DNA of 64,000 bases from Aeriscardovia aeriphila (lineage in GTDB: Bacteria > Actinomycetota > Actinomycetes > Actinomycetales > Bifidobacteriaceae): assembly GCF_002259595.1 (NCBI RefSeq), contig NZ_MWWU01000001.1, positions 62,001 to 126,000 of the forward strand. Direction: 5' to 3'. The notes beneath the pieces were generated by a model. The model worked only from the letters and a program-made list of their open reading frames with translations, had not been told where the DNA came from and did not search any database. Positions 49,743 through 59,046 of this stretch are shown here, piece by piece (positions within the stretch are counted from its first letter, which is position 1; the number at the start of each line of letters is the position of its first letter). The position numbers were made by a program, and so were the translations under genes.

Positions 49743-50102
49743 GTGAGCACGCTCGAAATTGTGATTACCATCGTCGTGGCATTGGCCGGCGTTGTTGCTG
49801 GCATCATTTACGGTTTTCTGCCGTGGCGGGTTGAGCAGATGGATAAGCAACAGCAAACCTGGCAAAAGAGCTTAGGAACGCTCGTTTTATGCGTCTTTGT
49901 TCTCTTGCTCGTCGCTCGCTATGACCTTGCCAGCTGGCTTATTTTGTTAGGCACACTTCTTGGGATTGCCATCGCCAAGATTCCTGCAATCCACACATGG
50001 GGTACCACGCGCTGGTTTGTGTTCCACCCTGCTGAACAAAAGGCGAGAGAACTGAAAAAGCACGAACGTGAAATGAGAAAGCAAACGCATTCGCGTCCAT
50101 GA
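49743..50102 (+). CDS. Small hypothetical membrane protein
   Basis: A 119-residue protein with three hydrophobic segments (about 4-24, 42-60 and 64-83) and a charged C-terminus (AEQKARELKKHEREMRKQ). I do not recognise it. GTG 49743, with AGG seven to ten bases upstream, starts 18 bases after the ATPase stop; the frame is open further upstream inside the ATPase gene. Co-transcription with ROK and ATPase is likely, while rpsP follows after 132 bases. Confidence 0.55.
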   Translation: MSTLEIVITIVVALAGVVAGIIYGFLPWRVEQMDKQQQTWQKSLGTLVLCVFVLLLVARYDLASWLILLGTLLGIAIAKIPAIHTWGTTRWFVFHPAEQKARELKKHEREMRKQTHSRP

Positions 50103-50234
50103 AATGAGGTATACTTCCAAGTTGTTGTCCATGTTGAAGGAGCCCTCAAACCTGTCAGCATGGGGAGAAGTGGACGACGCACCTTCACCCACAAGGAGCG
50201 GCAATCCGCGCTCTAAACAGATAAGGAGCCAATT

Positions 50235-50672
50235 TTGGCAACCAGGATTCGTCTTAAGCGTATGGGTAGGAAGTTCTACGCCTTCTATCGTATCGTCGTG
50301 GTCGATCAGCGCGCAAAGCGTGACGGTCGCGTCATCGAGGAGGTCGGCACCTACGATCCAAACACCCAGCCTTCGACCATCCACGTCAAGTCCGATCGCA
50401 TTCAGCACTGGCTGTCTGTCGGCGCTCAGCCTTCTGACCCAGTCCTCGTGCTGTTGAAGATCACCGGTGACTGGCAGACCTTCAAGCACCTTCCAGGTGC
50501 AGAGGGCACCTACCGCGAGCCAGCCGTGAAGTCCGCTGCTGTTGAAGCTGTGGAAAAGGCAGAGCTCGAGGCTCAGAAGCTCAAGGCTGCAAAGTCCGCA
50601 GCTGCTGAGAAGGCAAAGCAGGAAGCTGAGAAGGAAGATTCTTCCGAAGCTTCTGAAGAGTCTGCTGAGTGA
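50235..50672 (+). CDS. rpsP: 30S ribosomal protein S16
   Basis: 145 residues. The S16 core occupies residues 1-90 (ATRIRLKRMGRKFYAFYRIVVVDQRAKRDGRVIEEVGTYDPNTQPSTIHVKSDRIQHWLSVGAQPSDPVLVLLKITG), followed by a Lys/Ala/Glu-rich tail of about 50 residues, longer than in many bacteria. The start is TTG at 50235, fixed by AAGGAG five to six bases upstream and the core beginning MATRIRL. In most actinobacteria khpA follows directly; here a terminator and a 6.4 kb island intervene, so khpA, rimM and trmD must have their own promoter. Confidence 0.97.
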   Translation: MATRIRLKRMGRKFYAFYRIVVVDQRAKRDGRVIEEVGTYDPNTQPSTIHVKSDRIQHWLSVGAQPSDPVLVLLKITGDWQTFKHLPGAEGTYREPAVKSAAVEAVEKAELEAQKLKAAKSAAAEKAKQEAEKEDSSEASEESAE

Positions 50673-50690
50673 GTCTCTTCTGACGTTATA

Positions 50691-50726
50691 ACTGCTCGTA
50701 GCGAGAAATCGTTACGAGCAGTTTTT
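50691..50726 (+). terminator. rpsP terminator
   Basis: The stem actgctcgta / tacgagcagt with an interrupted gcga/tcgt extension and a gaaa-like loop is followed by ttttt. It stands 18 bases after the rpsP stop codon. Confidence 0.9.
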
Positions 50727-50738
50727 GTATATTCACCT

Positions 50739-51401
50739 TTATGCGCATACTTTCCTCTGCCTTGCGCCTTTTTGCATTTGTTCTGAATACTTCTCGTAGT
50801 TATTCATCAACACACTCATGCACCCGATGAGGAGTGCAAGCGAAACGAGAAGGAAGAGAAGCGTTGGCCAATCAAAGAAAGCAATCATCGTCACCATGAC
50901 GATGCCAGCAAGCCCACCAGCAAGAGAGCGAGGAAGCACCGCTGCCACAAAAGTACGCAACAGTGTGATGTCAGAAATAATGTGACTACTGACTTCTCCA
51001 CTTTCGCGTTGGTCATGATAAGCCAATGGCAGAGCTAAAACATGACGAAAGAGACGAATACGCAGCGCAATAATCCACTTATCTGCGCTCGAAGAGAGCA
51101 GATAAGTGGAAACAGAGATCAACACAGAGGATAAGAGAAGTGCAACACAGCCCAAAGCAGTGTAAGCAATAAGCTGACGAGAGTCTGACCATTGCACGAC
51201 AGCTGACCTGACGAAGAGAGGCATAGTTGCTCCCATCAAGCCTGCTATCACTCCAATAAGGACACCTACTATTACGGTAGGTTGACGGTAAAACTCTCGC
51301 AGTTGAGCAAACACGTGTTGCTCCTTCCCCTCATCCATCTGATGCCAGCCATTATGCGCAGTTGGCGAGGGCGAAAGGAAATGAGTGTCTGTTTTTTTCA
51401 C
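50739..51401 (-). pseudogene. ABC exporter, transmembrane half only (truncated)
   Basis: A 220-codon frame that matches the N-terminal two thirds of an exporter-type (ABC_membrane) transmembrane domain: helices at about 48-68, 79-100, 162-182 and 185-203, and the intracellular loop 'RIRLFRHVLALPLAYHDQRESGEVSSHIISDI' with the coupling helix. It ends in KGARQRKVCA, where a complete protein would continue for about 350 residues with the rest of the membrane domain and an ATPase. No ATPase sequence lies downstream; the frame stops 13 bases before the rpsP terminator region. A deletion or insertion boundary is likely. RamA/RamB-type exporters accompany class III lanthipeptides, but this identity is not proven. 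Confidence 0.75.
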
Positions 51402-51446
51402 AATAGGTATAGACAGGGTGGCAATCTGGAGCAGCCAATAAACAAG

Positions 51447-52841
51447 TTATTCGGCAAGCAGAGGGATTGTTGCTCGAACAATCCACACATCATCGTCGAT
51501 AGAAGTTTCGAGGCTTCCACCCAGTTGCTCAATAATATGCTGATGCAGTTGTAAACCCCTACCCGACTTACCACCACGACTTCGCGAAGAAAGAGTGTTC
51601 ATCGCAACGAGTTTCAGAGCCTGACAATCGGGAGCGAAGAGAAGAGAAACAGAGTACGTACCGTCAACAGAAGCATGCCGGCGAATATTAGCGAAAACCT
51701 CTGTCACCAGCTGAATAACCTCCTGGCGAGCCCGAACACTGATAGTGTCAGGAATTCCAGCAAGCTCAACATCAACAGTGCTAGCAAACCCAAGAGCATC
51801 CAGCTTCGCTTTTTCCCGGTTCGCAATGCGCGGCACAGCTTGCTGCAATGGCCCACGAGCATCAGCTACTTCATCAACAGGCTCTGGCTTACCACGAAGC
51901 CGATCAATAGCGAAGTGAGCTTTATCAAGAGCGTCCTGAGCTTCGTCGTACACATGTTGCCAATCAGAAGAAGTGGCAAGCTGAGAGTTTCCTAACGACG
52001 GCGAAGACTGAGATGAAGGTGAAGACGACGGTGAAGATGGAGATGAAAGCGAAATTGCTGTATTCTCTTGTCCCGTTTCTTCACTTGCAGTGAAGGATCG
52101 CTCTTGCAAAATATGGGAATATGCAATGGTGGCAATGAAAGAAAGATCATTAGTCAACCCATCATGCATTTGACTCGCCAAGCGGACATTACGTTCCAAC
52201 TGCTCAGCGCGCTGTTTCTCCACCTGCAATTGAGCCGCCTGAACGCGAACCTGCATAAGCCGCTGGATGTTGCGTATTAACATTCCTAGAAGCGCAGCTT
52301 GGAAAATATACCCCATTAATTGCAGCACTGCATCGCGAATCTGGTAAGAAGGGACAACATTGCGACTTACCAATACGCCCATCGAGACGGTGAGGAGCAG
52401 TAACGGAATACAGAAGGAGAAAAGGAGCTCCTTGCCGGAGCAATTCACGATTATCATGACGATGCAAGAAAGAGCAGTCAGAATAAAAGCAGCGCCATTG
52501 AAGGTCGGCATTGAAGCTACAATGCTCCATACGCTCAAAAAGAGCATCGCGAAAGGGTATGTTCTCCACGTCAGCCCGAATGTTAACCCCATGAGCAGGA
52601 GAGCAGGAAGAAGATGCTCAACGTTGAGGGGAGCAGGGCTCATCACGTAAATGGTAATTTCATAGATGAGAAGCACTATAGCTGCGATAACGCTAATAGT
52701 GTTTACCATTTTCCAATACGAAGCATCAGAAATTGGCTGTTCACTCTTGTTCTGAATATGGCGATTGTTACTCTTTTCTGCCTTCTGTTCAGCATGCCGA
52801 ATACCCGCATGTGGGAACAGCTGTTCCGCGAGCTTTCTCAT
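51447..52841 (-). CDS. NarL-type sensor histidine kinase
   Basis: A 464-residue membrane sensor. The N-terminal 175 residues hold five to six hydrophobic helices, then comes a coiled-coil linker and the HisKA_3 dimerisation box 'ASQMHDGLTNDLSFIATIAYSH' (phospho-His near residue 223). The HATPase domain follows with 'QLVTEVFANIRRHASVDGTYSV' (N box) and 'GGKSGRGLQLHQHIIEQLGGSLE' (G box). A Ser/Pro repeat-rich insert lies between residues 245 and 275. It overlaps the response regulator by four bases (ATGA), so the two form one system. Signal unknown; the neighbouring peptide and exporters suggest peptide or envelope sensing. Confidence 0.9.
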   Translation of the reverse strand: MRKLAEQLFPHAGIRHAEQKAEKSNNRHIQNKSEQPISDASYWKMVNTISVIAAIVLLIYEITIYVMSPAPLNVEHLLPALLLMGLTFGLTWRTYPFAMLFLSVWSIVASMPTFNGAAFILTALSCIVMIIVNCSGKELLFSFCIPLLLLTVSMGVLVSRNVVPSYQIRDAVLQLMGYIFQAALLGMLIRNIQRLMQVRVQAAQLQVEKQRAEQLERNVRLASQMHDGLTNDLSFIATIAYSHILQERSFTASEETGQENTAISLSSPSSPSSSPSSQSSPSLGNSQLATSSDWQHVYDEAQDALDKAHFAIDRLRGKPEPVDEVADARGPLQQAVPRIANREKAKLDALGFASTVDVELAGIPDTISVRARQEVIQLVTEVFANIRRHASVDGTYSVSLLFAPDCQALKLVAMNTLSSRSRGGKSGRGLQLHQHIIEQLGGSLETSIDDDVWIVRATIPLLAE

Positions 52842-53530
52842 TTTTGACCTTTCACCCACAGTGCAACCATTTGTACGCGGTTCTTCGCCCCCACTTTCTC
52901 ACACATACGTTTGATGTGAGTGGTTATTGTTCCGTTGCTCACACCGAGCTCTTTCTGAATTTCTGGCGTGGAATAGCCTTCCGAGCACAATCGGGCAATA
53001 CAGTTTTCTACTTCTGTAAAAGTTTCTATCCCTCGAGCTCGCGAATTCTGCGCTAACCGTTCGAATGCTTGGCGTGGAAGGAGAAAACTTGATTCCAGTG
53101 TGACGCTTTCAGCCGTTTTATGAGCATTAGTTGAGGAATCCCTCAGTGCAGTGACAATCTGGGAAAGTAAGGCGAGCAAAGCTGCAGGCTGACCTTTAGA
53201 AACGAGAGCTTGAGCTCCAGCGTGTGCCACTGAATCGCGATACTGCTCCAAGGGAAAAGACGTCATGGCGATGATCCACATTGAAGGATCATGAAGCCGG
53301 ATTTTCTTCGTCAGATCAATGCCATCAAGGCCTGGCATGGACATGTCGGTGAGCAGAATTGTAGGATGCCGAGCTGAACTCGCGCTCAGAGCAAGTTGCT
53401 GGGCCCGAAGCGGTTCACTCACAGCCCATACGAGCTTGATTTGCGGCAAAGCTTGAGAAATAAGGTTTTTTAACGCGACAAGGCTCAGCGGGTCATTATC
53501 GATCAATCCCAGTGTGATTTCCTTGCTCAT
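52838..53530 (-). CDS. NarL/FixJ-family response regulator
   Basis: A 230-residue protein with a receiver domain (IDNDPLSLVALKNLIS at the N-terminus, phospho-acceptor Asp in ILLTDMSMPGLDG near 61, switch Thr/Ser and Lys near 85-105) and a LuxR-type helix-turn-helix at about 165-225 (EVENCIARLCSEGYSTPEIQKELGVSNGTITTHIKRMCEKVGAKNRVQMV). The start at 53530 has GAGAAGG six bases upstream. RamR, the activator of the SapB class III lanthipeptide cluster, is of the same family. Divergent from the peptide gene, whose promoter it may control. Confidence 0.93.
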   Translation of the reverse strand: MSKEITLGLIDNDPLSLVALKNLISQALPQIKLVWAVSEPLRAQQLALSASSARHPTILLTDMSMPGLDGIDLTKKIRLHDPSMWIIAMTSFPLEQYRDSVAHAGAQALVSKGQPAALLALLSQIVTALRDSSTNAHKTAESVTLESSFLLPRQAFERLAQNSRARGIETFTEVENCIARLCSEGYSTPEIQKELGVSNGTITTHIKRMCEKVGAKNRVQMVALWVKGQK

Positions 53531-53766
53531 CGTGCCTTCTCTCTTACCAGCTGCTCGTCGCCAATTCCTTGGCTTGTAATCAGTTGCCACGCTATGCCAG
53601 CTGCTCGCCGCCACCATCTAGAAAATTCCCTGCTATTTCCTTCTTCAGCTTAGCTTCTTGCTACCGTCACACTTACAGATTGTGCAGAAAAACAGACAGT
53701 GATTTTGAAGCAACGATATAACAAGCCACACTGATAAAACAACATCCAACTGAAAGGAGAAATCCA
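53531..53766. other. Divergent control region of the regulator and peptide genes
   Basis: This 236-base spacer is the only one between the divergent regulator and peptide genes. The region 53538-53620 contains a near-duplicated sequence (taccagctgctcgtcgcca and tgccagctgctcgccgcca). A/T-rich patches lie at 53690-53750, with a TATAAC element near 53727. Confidence 0.45.
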
Positions 53767-53940
53767 ATGAATAGAATCCTATCTCTGCAACAACTGCCAG
53801 CGTCCACAAGCAGTGTAAATCAGCACATTAGAGATATGGGTAGCAGCTCATCAAGCAGCAGTTCAAGCAGCAGTAGCGTCGATGTAAACGTCGGCAAGGG
53901 CAGTGTAGTTAAAAGCTTTGTCAGTATCATCTGCCTATAG
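53767..53940 (+). CDS. Ser-rich precursor peptide, class III lanthipeptide-like
   Basis: A 57-residue peptide with a perfect ribosome-binding site (AAAGGAG, seven bases upstream). The N-terminus is MNRILSLQQLPAS; ILxLQxL is the leader motif recognised by class III (LanKC) synthetases. Residues 26-37 are twelve Ser in a row, then VDVNVGKGS and the end KSFVSIICL, which contains S50-x2-S53-x2-C56. Class III enzymes make labionin from S-x2-S-x3-C, so the spacing differs by one. There is only one Cys. It is followed by an ABC permease gene after 40 bases. It is too short for ordinary gene finders. Alternatives are an unrelated secreted or leader peptide; the leader motif and the nearby LanKC-like remnant support the RiPP reading. 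Confidence 0.7.
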   Translation: MNRILSLQQLPASTSSVNQHIRDMGSSSSSSSSSSSSVDVNVGKGSVVKSFVSIICL

Positions 53941-53980
53941 AAATTGAGTTACACCCCTGAATCAACATATAGGAGGATCA

Positions 53981-54757
53981 ATGAGAACGAATCTATATCA
54001 AGTAAATACAACATTCATCAAGCAAATTGCTCTTGAATTGAGAATCTTTCTCATTGATGCTCGGTTTGAGACCACTGCGATTTTCATTAACTTCATTCTT
54101 CCAAGCGCAGTACTAATTTTTACAGTTCTCAATACACCTCAGCAACTAATCAGCGATTCCACCTCTGCGAGGATCATTTTCCAGTTCACTACTTATATCT
54201 GCCTGACAACTGTAATGAACTTAGTTATCTCCTACCTTGTCAGCAGCAGACAAGAAGGAATTCTCCTTACTCACACTCATCTTTTTGGATCTCCCAGACC
54301 ATTTATCATGGGACTCATCCTTGGGCAATCCCTAGTTTCTACTGCCGAATCGGTACTGTTGAGCATACTAGGCATGTCCCTAACAAACTATTTCAATTGG
54401 AAGCTCATCCTAGCAGTTGCAATTGGTATACCACTTGCAACATTCATTCTCTCTTTCTTCCTATTGCCTCTGGCCCTATCTTATGGAACTGCAAGTAGCT
54501 CTGCCGCAGTTATTTCAGTAATTCTCTTGATACTCTTTAATCTGCCGAAAGAGGGGTCTCATCCTTTCCTAACATTTGTTCTGCAATTGAACCCTGTATA
54601 TTTCACTCAAAATGTTCAATCGTTCTTGCTGTCGACGGCAAGTATGAAAATCATTCCTCTATCTATGGGGAACTGCTTTGTGATCATCCTTTCGATACTT
54701 TCGAGCATTATCTCAATAAAACACCTTCCGCTAAGACCTCTGCTTAAGAGAGCTTAA
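53981..54757 (+). CDS. ABC-2-type transporter permease
   Basis: A 258-residue protein with about six hydrophobic segments and low G+C. The arrangement (first helix after a 30-residue basic start, 'TTYICLTTVMNLVISYLVSSRQEGILLTHTHLFGSPRPF', two long helices, C-terminal pair) fits ABC-2 permeases that export peptides or drugs. AGGAGG lies five bases before the ATG. It has no ATPase on its own strand; the ATPase gene at 55421-56182 faces it from the other side of the remnant region. Together with the peptide gene it is a natural export/immunity pair. Confidence 0.75.
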   Translation: MRTNLYQVNTTFIKQIALELRIFLIDARFETTAIFINFILPSAVLIFTVLNTPQQLISDSTSARIIFQFTTYICLTTVMNLVISYLVSSRQEGILLTHTHLFGSPRPFIMGLILGQSLVSTAESVLLSILGMSLTNYFNWKLILAVAIGIPLATFILSFFLLPLALSYGTASSSAAVISVILLILFNLPKEGSHPFLTFVLQLNPVYFTQNVQSFLLSTASMKIIPLSMGNCFVIILSILSSIISIKHLPLRPLLKRA

Positions 54758-54787
54758 GCATGATCAGTGGATAGAAAACACCTTGTT

Positions 54788-54820
54788 GAACCGCATCCTA
54801 ATTCAGATGCGGTTCATTTG
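54788..54820 (+). terminator. Terminator after the permease gene
   Basis: The stem gaaccgcatc / gatgcggttc (10 bases) with an 8-base loop is followed by atttg. The T-run is short. Confidence 0.75.
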
Positions 54821-54849
54821 TAGACTTACAAGCCTGATAGTACCTATGA

Positions 54850-55100
54850 ATTGAAAGTGAGCAGCATACGTGACACGTTCTGCCCTGACACGTTTACTAA
54901 CACGACGAGACACAATCCCCTTACGTGTTCGAGTTTTCACCTAAGTTCGCAAAACATGCAAACGAGGATAACCCAACTGATTCACAGTATGGGAATACGC
55001 ACCTAACTTCCAATACAAACGAACAGCTTTAACCTTGCTCTCACTCACCCGCACAGAAACCTCCAACAAACTGTTCGAGCAACAGATCGGCCGATAATCC
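54850..55100 (-). pseudogene. IS3-family transposase (OrfA) remnant
   Basis: Read on the minus strand, the conceptual frame gives 'VSESKVKAVRLYWKLGAYSHTVNQLGYPRLHVLRT' and then a TAG (54941-54943) where a Trp codon is usual, continuing as VKTRTRKG. The pattern '(K/R)AVxLYxxxG....xxxLGYP....LxxW' is that of the helix-turn-helix part of IS3-type OrfA. It has no start codon and no complete OrfB. It lies beside the decayed synthetase remnant, so the insertion may have caused the loss. Confidence is limited because only about 40 residues can be compared. Confidence 0.6.
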
Positions 55101-55137
55101 TAATTCGAGTTATAGAGACCTCCAAACCTAAAATACG

Positions 55138-55193
55138 AACTGCTCCCTGATAATCGATCGATTTCATATCCGTTCGATTATCAGGGAGCAGTT
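55138..55193. repeat. Perfect 20-base inverted repeat
   Basis: AACTGCTCCCTGATAATCGA (55138-55157) and its exact complement (55174-55193) flank a 16-base spacer, between the IS3-like and LanKC-like remnants. The right end meets the remnant's TAA stop. It may be a terminator of the lost gene on the minus strand or an insertion-sequence end. It contains TGATAATC in both arms but not the full motif. Confidence 0.85.
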
Positions 55194-55379
55194 TTACGCA
55201 TACATAGCAAATAATCTTAACTTAGATGAATGCAGTGGAAACCACTCACTCCAACTGCCTTCTTCAGAAATACTGTGGAAAGCAAGAAGAATACCTGCTG
55301 ATCCAGAGATATAGTCTGTGCTGCATTTATAGCCAAACCAACCTGGGACTAATACTTCAGAATCATCTCTGAGGAGATA
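55194..55379 (-). pseudogene. LanKC (class III lanthipeptide synthetase) C-terminal remnant
   Basis: The 61-codon frame reads YLLRDDSEVLVPGWFGYKC, then STDYISGSAGILLAF and SEEGSWSEWFPLH, before a stop at 55194-55196. The block C-STDYISGSAGILLAF matches the end of the cyclase (LanC-like) domain of class III synthetases (pattern L-S-x-D-x-x-T/S-G-x-A-G-V/I-x-L-A-L), and the following Trp-rich segment is also typical. It has no start codon and no ribosome-binding site; a stop (55380-55382) precedes it. A full enzyme needs about 850 residues (lyase, kinase, cyclase), and none of that remains here. This comparison is by memory of the family, not an alignment. Confidence 0.65.
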
Positions 55380-55420
55380 TTAAACAGTTGGTTCCCTTTG
55401 GTCAAACCTTCAGAGGAGGT

Positions 55421-56182
55421 TCACTCTTGCCCAAGCAGATTGCGGAAAATGTCTGACGACTGATGCGCATTCTCCCTCTTGAGGAATGAGGAAGCTTTCC
55501 CCGCGCGAATACGAGGTGTAGACAGCCCAGCCTGCTCTTCCATACTCCCCTGTTCCGTCAAACCAGTACCACGCATACCTTCGTCGCTCACAATGATGAG
55601 CCAAGGGTCACCGAAGAGGAAAATTTGTTCCATGCTGTGGAGGGTGACAACAACTGTCCTCTGCATCGTTTTCTGCAGTTGCTGAGAATCACTACCTGGA
55701 GTGGGCAAGAGTGACGTGATGGCATCAGCTATGAGGGTAGCATTGTAAGGGTCGACTCCTGAAAGCGGCTCGTCGAACAGGTACAGTTCTCGGTTCAACA
55801 TGCATGCGCTCCACACGCTGACAATCTGGGCTTGACCTCCCGACAGCATTCCCATCCGAGTTTTCCGGTGAGGCTCAAGAATTTGAATAAGCTTGTTCAG
55901 CACATCGGGAGAATTCCCCGCAGCTTCCGGCCCAGAAATGCCATCGATCTGCCGAATAATATCGATTTGTTCACTCACAGTCAGCGATTCAAATAAGCCA
56001 TGGTTCTGAGTGATATATGCCGTATTGGGTCGAACTGATTGCGTATCGTTTCCGTTCTCATCAATCTCGCCAGCAAGCGTATCCAGAAGAGTTGTTTTTC
56101 CAATTCCATTTCGACCAATAACGAGATTTACACAGTCATGAGCGAAGGGAATTTGCGAAACTTGGAATACCGGACGTACCAT
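55421..56182 (-). CDS. ABC transporter ATP-binding protein (peptide/lantibiotic export type)
   Basis: A 253-residue ATPase with Walker A GRNGIGKTT (about 21-29), a Q-loop 'TAYITQNHGLFESLTVSEQ', signature 'MLSGGQAQIVSVWSA' (about 112), Walker B 'LYLFDEPLSGVDP' (about 132) and switch His 'VVVTLHSM'. The start at 56182 has AGGAGG five bases upstream; the longer frame upstream lies in the preceding gene's 3' end. It is the natural partner of the ABC-2 permease at 53981. Its stop is 41 bases before the LanKC-like remnant. Confidence 0.88.
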   Translation of the reverse strand: MVRPVFQVSQIPFAHDCVNLVIGRNGIGKTTLLDTLAGEIDENGNDTQSVRPNTAYITQNHGLFESLTVSEQIDIIRQIDGISGPEAAGNSPDVLNKLIQILEPHRKTRMGMLSGGQAQIVSVWSACMLNRELYLFDEPLSGVDPYNATLIADAITSLLPTPGSDSQQLQKTMQRTVVVTLHSMEQIFLFGDPWLIIVSDEGMRGTGLTEQGSMEEQAGLSTPRIRAGKASSFLKRENAHQSSDIFRNLLGQE

Positions 56183-56231
56183 TTTTCCTCCTGATGTTGG
56201 TGTTGGTTTGTTAGCTATATCTGTTGTTTCG

Positions 56232-56786
56232 TTAAGCAACAGGTGGTTTCCCACATCTATCTCGGAATATTTCTTCCGAAAGTTTCCCTTGTTTATCGCT
56301 AAATGTTTCGCTGACAATACCTGTCAGCACGATGTTTCCATGATTGTCAAGATTGATGAAACGAGCAGAGGGAAAATGCTGCATCTCATTAAGGTTGTTA
56401 ACACTCACCACTGCAATGCTCTTTTCCTTTCTTCGCTCAGCACATATGTCAGCCAGAAGGTCAGCACGGTCTTTCCTTTCAGCGGTAGAAGAAAAAGACG
56501 GACCAAAGAAATACACCGACCGGTTGAGATGAGCGATTTCCCACATCATGACCACATTCCTTACAGAACCCGATACATGGTTGATACGCGCCTTCCGATA
56601 AGGACTAAGTTCTTCTTCCATTGCCTTCAGCAATACTGGAAATCTTGAGCTCTGCTCTTGGGGAAGAGGAGGATCGACCTGCGCCATCAACTTCATGTGT
56701 TGCTTCACAGTAAGCTCCTGGTACGGCATAGTGAGCACAAGAGCACTAGGGGCAGCACATCCGCGAGGAATGAAAAGCGCATGCAC
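56232..56786 (-). pseudogene. Degenerate ABC ATPase lacking Walker A
   Basis: A 184-codon frame that aligns by eye to the second two thirds of the neighbouring ATPase: 'TMPYQELTVKQHMKLMAQ' corresponds to the Q-loop (Gln lost), 'INHVSGSVRNVVMMWEIAHLNRSVYFFGPSFSS' to the signature and Walker B (both catalytic carboxylates lost), and 'SIAVVSVNNLNEMQHF' to the switch (His lost). No P-loop is present. An ATG with GGAGGAGGG upstream at about 56837 leads into a different frame, so a frameshift or deletion near the 5' end may explain the loss. It might instead be a structural, non-hydrolysing partner. Confidence 0.7.
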
Positions 56787-57166
56787 AGAATAAAATAATG
56801 AAATGGCCGTGCCTGCCCTACGCTAGCTGTCATTGTGAAATCCCTCCTCCCCTGGCTTAGAAGTTCCTTCACGTCAAAAGGCTACGTTGCCTCTTCGTAC
56901 TCAAGAAATCAGTGTCTGTTTTCTCGCAATATACTTCACAAGAAATGATGCAGTACATTTGTTATCGCCGTATACGGCCATGTGACGTTACACGTGAAAC
57001 GCCTTCCCAACCAGATCGTTATCGTGAAGCCGGCACTAGCAGAGGAAAAAATGACAGCCGCATATGCTCAAAATAGTTCCTCTCCCCTTTCTCTTCGCCG
57101 CAAGCCAGTAGAATGGCAACTTCTTTATGAGTAGAATGACAAGAGTTAGTGGGCGAAAGGAAGAAC
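56787..57166. other. Right border of the island and khpA promoter region
   Basis: Reading 56860-57110, I see no protein-like frame. The khpA promoter must lie here because rpsP is 6.4 kb away and terminated. The surrounding region is A/T-rich, with an imperfect palindrome (tgtgacgttacacgt, 56980-56994). Confidence 0.45.
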
Positions 57167-57409
57167 ATGCTAGCTGAAGCACTGAAGCACCTGATTAGCA
57201 ATATCGTTGATTTCCCTGCCGATGTGTCCGTTCGTGACATCGACACTTCTCGCGGCGAAATGTTGCGCGTGCGCGTCAACCCGGAGGATATTGGCCGTGT
57301 GATTGGCCGTGGCGGACGCACTGCTACTGCTTTGCGCACTGTCGTTGACGCCATTGCTGGTGAGCATGTGCGCGTCGACATCATGGATAACCGTCGCTCT
57401 CGTCGATAA
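57167..57409 (+). CDS. khpA: KhpA-type KH-domain RNA-binding protein
   Basis: 80 residues forming a single KH domain with the GxxG loop as VIGRGGRTATALRTV. It is a small RNA chaperone (YlqC/KhpA) that lies between rpsP and rimM in most Gram-positive bacteria. ATG 57167 has GAAAGGAAGAAC upstream; an in-frame GTG six codons earlier is less likely. It has kept its place next to rimM despite the island. Confidence 0.92.
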   Translation: MLAEALKHLISNIVDFPADVSVRDIDTSRGEMLRVRVNPEDIGRVIGRGGRTATALRTVVDAIAGEHVRVDIMDNRRSRR

Positions 57410-57525
57410 AATACGCGAGATGCTTGGCAATAAGGAATAATCCTGGTAACGCCGATCACGCCACCCCTATTACCATCCTTATGCCATCCAGTCTTGTCAA
57501 TCGTCGCCCAATTGTGAGGGAGTGT

Positions 57526-58065
57526 ATGCCTCGTACCGATAATCTCGAGAACCTCGTTCGCGTGTGCGTGATAGGCCGAGCTCAAGGTTTGCACGGTGAA
57601 GTCAATGTTCTCTCTTACACCGACTCTCCTGACGAGCGTTTTGCTCGCGGCTCTGAGCTTGTCGACGGCGGAGGTCGTACGTACCGGGTGCGCTCAGCCC
57701 GCCAGTTCAAACGTCGCTGGATTCTCAAGTTTTCCGGCGTGAGTGACCGAAACGCAGCCGAAGCTCTCAACGGAACAACTCTCTACGCTGAGCAAACTTA
57801 TGAGAATGAGAGCGAAGAAGACGATGTTGACGAGGGTATTTACTACGAAGACCTCATCGGCATGCGCGCTCAACTGGCTGACGGCACGAACCTGGGTGAG
57901 GTGACGGACGTTCAGGAAGCTCCAGCCCAATTGCTGCTCGTTGTGCGCGAACCTCAGGGCCATGAGTCATTAGTTCCTTATGTAGAGGCGATTGTTCCTG
58001 ATGTTGATTTGGACAATCGTATTCTCACTCTGGACCCGCCTGCAGGTTTGTTGCAAGAACACTGA
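57526..58065 (+). CDS. rimM: Ribosome maturation factor RimM
   Basis: 179 residues. The N-terminal domain begins VRVCVIGRAQGLHGEVNVLSYTDSPDERFARG and the C-terminal PRC barrel has YYEDLIGMRAQLADGTNLGEVTDVQEAPAQLLLVV and 'LVPYVEAIVPDVDLDNRILTLDPPAGL'. It assists 30S head assembly by binding S19. I start at ATG 57526 (GAGGGA upstream), so the first residues are MPRTDNLENLVRV: the motif-coded RTDNLEN lies directly at the N-terminus ahead of the conserved fold. The khpA-rimM gap is 116 bases. Confidence 0.93.
   Translation: MPRTDNLENLVRVCVIGRAQGLHGEVNVLSYTDSPDERFARGSELVDGGGRTYRVRSARQFKRRWILKFSGVSDRNAAEALNGTTLYAEQTYENESEEDDVDEGIYYEDLIGMRAQLADGTNLGEVTDVQEAPAQLLLVVREPQGHESLVPYVEAIVPDVDLDNRILTLDPPAGLLQEH
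57537..57550 (+). repeat. Near-exact motif copy at the rimM start
   Basis: ccgataatctcgag: one base from the exact core (CTGATAATCT), coding TDNLE at residues 4-8, before the conserved fold. The downstream TDNLE spelling and extension match the other coding copies. Confidence 0.6.
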
Positions 58066-58143
58066 GGACGCCTCTTTTTCTGGCGCATCCTGTGAGTTTG
58101 TTTGTTTGCCGGCCTTCTTACCCATTGTGACAAGTGATTACCT

Positions 58144-59046
58144 ATGCTTCTTGATATTGTTTCCGTTTTCCCTGACTACTTCAGCATTTTGAACCTCTCG
58201 CTTCTGGGGAAAGCTCAGGCTGATGGGCTTGTTGAGGTACGCGCTCACAATCTGCGTGATTGGACTCACGACGTGCACCATTCTGTCGATGACACTCCTG
58301 TCGGCGGCGGGGCTGGAATGGTGATGAAGCCGGAAATTTGGGCTTCGTGCTTGGATGAGCTGTTGGGTATGCCTGCGCTCACTGTGGATGCTTCTGCTCA
58401 AGCTATGGCGAATGCTACTGCTGACCTCGCGTCGTCTTTTTCTTCTGGCTACGCTCCAGATTATCAGCCTTCTTCTTCACCCGCGGATGATGAAAAACCG
58501 GTGTTAATCTTCCCGGACCCTTCAGCTCCGCTTTTTACTCAGGCTGCAGCTCAGGAATTGTCTCGCCACCACCATCTTGTGTTTGGGTGCGGCCGTTACG
58601 AGGGTATTGATGCTCGTGTGGGGCAGTATTATGCGGCTCAAGGAGTGGATGTTCGAGAGTATTCTCTCGGTGATTATGTTCTCAACGGTGGTGAAGTTGC
58701 CGTCTGCGTGATGATTGAGGCTATCACGCGCTTGATTCCTGGATTTATGGGTAACCCTGATTCGATTGTGGATGAGTCGTATACGGGTGAGCCGCTGCTG
58801 GAGCATCGTCAGTTTACTCGTCCGACGACATGGCGAGGCTTGTCTGTGCCGCCGATTTTGACGTCGGGAGACCATGCGAAGGTGGATCGTTTTCGTCGTG
58901 ATGAAAAGTTAGTGCGGACGAATGCTGTGCGCCCGGACCTTATCGAGAAGTTAGATACTCATTCTTTGGATAAAGCTGACCGCAAGCTTCTCATGAGCTT
59001 GGGGTGGGATGTGAGTGGGGACCATCCTCGTCGTGCGCGCAAGTAG
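58144..59046 (+). CDS. trmD: tRNA (guanine-N1)-methyltransferase TrmD
   Basis: 300 residues. It methylates G37 of tRNA next to the anticodon. The knot sequences '[63 protein letters not shown]', '[16 protein letters not shown]', '[42 protein letters not shown]' and '[10 protein letters not shown]' are all present. An insert of about 35 residues rich in Ala, Ser and Pro (near 83-118) contains a motif copy (58458). The family normally lacks it, so the protein is longer than usual. It follows rimM after 78 bases. Confidence 0.96.
58458..58467 (-). repeat. CTGATAATCT motif copy inside trmD
   Basis: AGATTATCAG on the plus strand. It lies in the variable Ala/Ser/Pro insert (coding DYQ) and not in the knot, so it costs little. 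Confidence 0.65.

Follow-up and report, generated by a model that had tools for sequence, protein, structure and literature searches.

A short Ser-rich open reading frame encoded beside a fragment of a class III lanthipeptide synthetase (LanKC) raises the question of whether the peptide is a genuine lanthipeptide precursor and whether its gene cluster still functions. The locus lies in a stretch of 64 kb (referred to as the window) of a 1.63 Mb draft assembly from a gut bacterium related to bifidobacteria. The assembly consists of 12 contigs, is 84% complete and is the only genome available for its species. The nearest named relative found is an Aeriscardovia aeriphila MAG, and the window was assigned to the same genus (Bifidobacteriaceae) by this kinship. 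The MAG comprises 70 contigs, and its lan locus is divided between contigs C3 (locus L046, CASERW010000003.1) and C59 (locus L056, 1–8163), both with related regulators.

The open reading frame at 53767–53940 (forward strand) encodes 57 aa (MNRILSLQQLPASTSSVNQHIRDMGSSSSSSSSSSSSVDVNVGKGSVVKSFVSIICL), is preceded by an AAAGGAG Shine-Dalgarno sequence and reads as an earlier note on this DNA had described it, with an ILxLQxL leader, a run of 12 Ser and a C-terminal S-x2-S-x2-C. Its leader MNRILSLQQL (residues 1–10, with the motif LSLQQL) fits the (I/V)LxLQ criterion for class III and is the sole such ORF in the 64 kb. The core SFVSIIC fits the SxxSx(2-5)C pattern, which was counted as a class III core motif in a published survey (PMC11251773). 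The leader motif by itself has no significance, as ~1.1 occurrences are expected per 64 kb of Markov random sequence. Leader and C-terminal SxxSx(2-5)C together occurred 32 times in 3592 random 64-kb sequences, or ~0.009 times per window. The peptide scored below the cut-off of the NCBIfam precursor model (NF038154; 10.7 vs 22 bits) and did not match the SapB/AmfS model. Sub-threshold scores were also obtained for several precursors adjoining intact LanKCs (e.g. 15.7 and 15.9 vs 22, 13.6 vs 30), among them the lanA of the relative (15.7). Among 99 related genomes, a query with the peptide alone retrieved only itself, in a search so insensitive that it missed the relative's lanA, and a three-row precursor profile recovered nothing in the genus beyond the two precursors already known. 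Because the combination of leader and core is so rare in random sequence and the same architecture occurs in the precursors of the nearest LanKCs, we conclude from sequence that the peptide is a real class III precursor (lanA) by family, position and regulation. A modified product of such a precursor would contain dehydroalanine and lanthionine or labionin.

On the opposite strand, the 61-codon fragment at 55194–55379 had been interpreted as the end of a LanKC, and the profile search was positive: the fragment matched positions 799–832 of the 833 positions of NF038151 (class III LanKC) with E = 1.6e-5. It is also identical at 57 of 61 positions (93%) to residues 857–917 of a LanKC that is encoded intact, with 917 aa, at the syntenic position of the A. 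aeriphila MAG (L046). This enzyme exceeds the curated cut-off (619 vs 575 bits) and possesses RamC_N lyase, kinase and LANC_like cyclase domains. The fragment represents the last 61 codons of such an enzyme, the remaining ~2.6 kb being deleted; a LanKC with lyase, kinase and cyclase is absent from the window, which contains the remnant of a cluster and not a working one. The synthetase, already reported missing from the locus, was absent from the whole 84%-complete assembly in both profile searches and searches with the relative's LanKC. No LANC_like match was obtained anywhere in the assembly, even at E 10, and the relative's LanKC retrieved the fragment and two weak kinase-only matches (~15 bits), with no second enzyme. 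As NF038151 matches ordinary kinases in every genome, only matches spanning lyase and cyclase were counted. The dN/dS of the fragment (0.147, with 5 of 13 changes nonsynonymous) resembles that of the intact neighbours (0.15–0.18), which suggests, at the low power of 61 codons, that constraint on the enzyme persisted through most of the divergence; the loss of LanKC thus looks recent. Elsewhere in the family, LanKC pieces only were found in G210, G211, G217 and G220 (L018–L021 and L057–L059), all from one genus; they comprise the N-terminal 160–180 residues in three genomes and the C-terminal 195 in one, and two of the pieces start close to the beginning of a contig. In the Bifidobacteriaceae, decay may be a recurrent fate of class III loci. 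In a Bifidobacterium-group genome (G132), an intact LanKC is accompanied by three candidate precursors of class III (L050, 5905–6045, 6069–6203 and 8807–8941), two of which pass the NCBIfam cut-off.

The description of the locus as decayed was borne out by this remnant together with separate deletions against the relatives. Aligned with L046, the window consists of 86–92% identical DNA broken by losses of ~2606 bp of LanKC, 867 bp within a permease-ATPase-like gene, 220 bp that contain lanA in the relative, and 1136 bp from a lipoprotein gene. Comparison with L056, which covers the locus on its rpsP side, shows a further loss of ~1275 bp from an ABC exporter. The exporter remnant (50739–51401, reverse strand) retains the N-terminal membrane part with 220 aa (~650 aa in the relative; Pfam ABC_membrane, E 1.3e-17), and the L056 homologue carries both membrane and ATPase domains. 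The permease-ATPase-like gene, which encodes 487 aa in L046, is reduced to 56232–56786 (reverse) by the ~867 bp internal deletion near position 56750. The junction sequences place the site of the deleted lanA, the counterpart of L046 8175–8324, at 56845–56876, and the lipoprotein-like gene (L046 8600–9757) persists as a tail at 56974–57134 (forward) that lacks the ~1136 bp. A segment without counterpart in L046 (54758–55110), described in the earlier note as an IS3-like remnant, may be what is left of an insertion sequence, but its only recognisable peptide had no Pfam or plasmid match. An inverted repeat with 23-nt arms (55138–55193; RNA fold −39.3 kcal/mol, z −9) sits between the permease and the dead LanKC and is probably a two-way terminator; L046 has a similar hairpin. 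No Rfam family was detected in 50000–58500 of the window, and a sigma-70 promoter scan performed no better than chance.

The genes that remain open include the permease, the ABC ATPase and the NarL-type regulator pair, all found where the earlier note had placed them. The sensor histidine kinase (51447–52859, reverse) is an open frame of 470 aa that had no Pfam match and was assigned to the NarL-partner type by sequence motifs and pairing; it shares 87.6% aa identity with its L046 counterpart over 426 codons (dN/dS 0.18). The NarL/LuxR-type response regulator (52841–53530, reverse; Pfam Response_reg 2.3e-13, GerE 5.2e-11) is intact and 89.6% identical (dN/dS 0.18), and the intact ATPase (55421–56182, reverse; Pfam ABC_tran 8.6e-17) is 90.5% identical. 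The ABC-2-type permease (53981–54757, forward; 258 aa) is intact as well; it is only 57% identical to the L046 permease with saturated dS, in contrast to a dS of 0.2–0.35 in the flanks. Thus, the regulator pair, permease, ATPase and peptide are open, whereas the synthetase, the exporter, the second transporter and the lipoprotein are broken. With synthetase and exporter both broken, production and export have most likely been lost. The genes around the relative's intact LanKC are the same and identically ordered, and the A. aeriphila cluster agrees with the window in place, gene order, regulator, ATPase, operators and LanKC C-terminus. It differs in that LanKC, lanA (MKNILDLQKM...SFGSFVCR) and lipoprotein are intact, and in that no lanA precedes its permease.

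A 17-bp motif, AAAACAGACA(G/C)TGATTT, occurs at three sites in the 1.63 Mb genome with at most one mismatch, all within the lan locus, whereas the reversed motif as a control had no site in the genome. Copy 1 (AAAACAGACAGTGATTT, 53689–53705, forward) is located 61 nt upstream of the start codon of the peptide and is identical upstream of the permease in L046 and L056. Copy 2 (AAAACAGACACTGATTT, 56906–56922, reverse) has been kept though the lanA downstream is gone, and copy 3 (AAAACAGACACTCATTT, 51379–51395, reverse), which has one mismatch, lies upstream of what is probably the true start of the exporter remnant. The first two copies are also present in L046, before permease and lanA; the contig starts inside the kinase gene, so that the site of the third lies outside it. 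The operator in front of the peptide indicates that its gene belongs to the lan regulon, and we infer that the NarL-type regulator binds the motif. As the peptide is lacking in front of the A. aeriphila permease, and the two genomes diverge at ~53740–55100 and become close again after the permease, the divergence and the saturated permease dS point to a lanA-permease cassette that was swapped or differentially retained. The peptide heads this cassette, which is unlike that of A. aeriphila.

The lan cluster has been inserted between rpsP and the KH-domain gene, since rpsP, KH, rimM and trmD are contiguous in another Aeriscardovia genome. In a third Aeriscardovia species, a different insert of ~3.7 kb separates rpsP from the KH gene (L070, G003:C2:68500-77500), and this spot thus seems to accept variable DNA. 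The A. aeriphila MAG contains two versions of the regulator/permease module on two contigs (L046 and L056), with regulators 90% and 74% identical to those of the window, and only one rpsP and one trmD. The doubling reflects either tandem modules or mixed strains.

The 12-Ser stretch and the S-x2-S-x2-C spacing had both been considered unusual, a view that did not hold for either. The spacing lies within the published SxxSx(2-5)C range (PMC11251773) and is the norm in the clade of the nearest LanKCs. This well-supported clade (100/99 and 96/97, with the L046 enzyme) comprises A. aeriphila, the Bifidobacterium-group genome G155, Jeotgalibaca dankookensis and Lactobacillus helsingborgensis, and in a small sample its precursors end in SFGSFVC(R), SSWSWFC, SSFSIFC and SHTSFHC(K)/SHKSKYC, all of them S-x2-S-x2-C. 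The L. helsingborgensis row of the tree had been labelled 'other' before its motif was noticed. In the sister group (Staphylococcus, Priestia and S. salivarius), precursors mostly end in S-x2-S-x3-C, and a candidate L. plantarum precursor in this group is ambiguous. LanKC relatives were located on 37 plasmids, and none was found in phages. The nearest plasmid-borne LanKC (37% identity) belongs to a J. dankookensis cluster (NZ_CP019729.1, L107), whose precursor MKNPVLDLQ...GGGSSSSSSSSSIENSSFSIFC shares a Ser run and S-x2-S-x2-C with the window peptide: nine consecutive Ser lie between a Gly-rich stretch and the core. In contrast to the window, this cluster looks intact, has a single ABC transporter, lacks a NarL pair in the annotated stretch and comes from another phylum. 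The A. aeriphila precursor contains GSDSGSSASST. The recurrence of spacing and Ser run in precursors of the clade indicates that both are group features. Replication slippage in a dead gene is an unlikely source of the run, because AGY and TCA codons are mixed and a Ser run recurs in Jeotgalibaca.

The likeness to ramCSABR proposed earlier stood in part. The ATPase and the NarL-type pair are present, and SapB/RamS shares the class III leader motif, a LanKC and a NarL-type regulator. However, the A. aeriphila LanKC groups with Bacillota-type LanKCs, apart from the separate clade of actinobacterial LanKCs. Its best solved relative is ThurKC of the andalusicin system of Bacillus thuringiensis (8sap, E 3e-100). 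The andalusicin core carries 11 dehydrations, made by ThurKC, and a single labionin region (PMC10604976); a methyltransferase and seven near-identical precursors are encoded, neither of which was seen in the window, and no long Ser run is described in the text consulted. A literature search of limited reach returned nothing on lanthipeptides of Jeotgalibaca, on class III lanthipeptides of the Bifidobacteriaceae or on runs of Ser. The best reading is that the locus descends from a Ser-rich class III group that extends across two phyla and has been little described. More tentatively, the window peptide could have the longest run in an undescribed group of class III found across Bifidobacteriaceae and Bacillota, whose distinct LanKC clade would convert the leader-adjacent Ser run to oligo-dehydroalanine and close a tight C-terminal S-x2-S-x2-C ring; we regard this as possible, but doubtful in its entirety.

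In a working ancestor, the NarL-type two-component system would have bound the shared operator before each lan operon and thereby switched on precursor, synthetase and exporter. LanKC would have bound the LxLQ leader, and core serines would have been phosphorylated and eliminated to dehydroalanine, with a labionin or lanthionine closed at the C-terminal S-x2-S-x2-C. The Ser run would have become an oligo-dehydroalanine stretch or remained a linker. In the window lineage, separate deletions removed most of LanKC, the ATPase half of the exporter, part of the other transporter, the lipoprotein gene and the far-end lanA, and the regulators, permease and ATPase still open may continue to confer immunity.

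We therefore consider it probable, on these genomic comparisons, that the locus is a class III lanthipeptide cluster that was disabled recently and the peptide an unmodified orphan precursor, given the profile match of the fragment, its 93% match to an intact syntenic LanKC, five separate deletions, the lack of any other LanKC or LanC in the assembly, the operators, the leader and core of the peptide and the dN/dS of the fragment. Against this reading counts that the lesions are known from one genome of the species, that a second LanKC could be missing from an 84% complete assembly of 12 contigs, and that the peptide scores below the cut-off of the precursor model. The same incompleteness would leave room for a peptide still in production, with a class III enzyme encoded in the unassembled part acting on it in trans, as would the intact leader, core, Shine-Dalgarno sequence, operator and permease and the two related regulator/transporter modules that A. 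aeriphila may hold. We judge this improbable, because the searches of the assembly for LANC_like domains and with the relative's LanKC yielded no such enzyme and the ABC exporter is also truncated. Even less probable is that the deletions are assembly or mixed-strain artefacts of a draft genome. Draft assemblies can misjoin, and the relative with the intact locus is itself a MAG of 70 contigs, but five separate lesions with diverged junctions lie within 6 kb of an assembly that has 12 contigs, and 87–92% identical DNA flanks them on both sides.

Compatible with a disabled cluster, the locus could have been retained as an immunity or sensing module against the peptide of producers such as A. 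aeriphila. The genes that have stayed open are precisely the regulator pair, the permease and the ATPase, whereas those for the synthetase, the exporter and the lipoprotein have been disrupted, and the operator copies are retained. For the pneumococcal blp locus, it has been suggested, and contested, that transport was lost while immunity persisted (PMC4739728). On the other hand, broken and intact genes have the same dN/dS (0.15–0.19) with no sign of selective retention, and an immunity role of the permease is an assumption. We therefore hold such retention to be a plausible, though not the likelier, outcome.

The disabled-cluster interpretation connects an enzyme that has been lost with the intact version in a sister species, which makes a recent switch from producer to non-producer directly testable; whether the remaining ABC pair still protects is testable through the same comparison. 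The locus also draws attention to a LanKC clade in which the core is consistently S-x2-S-x2-C and two members, from different phyla, have long Ser runs. As the Jeotgalibaca and A. aeriphila clusters look intact, their expression could show whether Ser runs become oligo-dehydroalanine.
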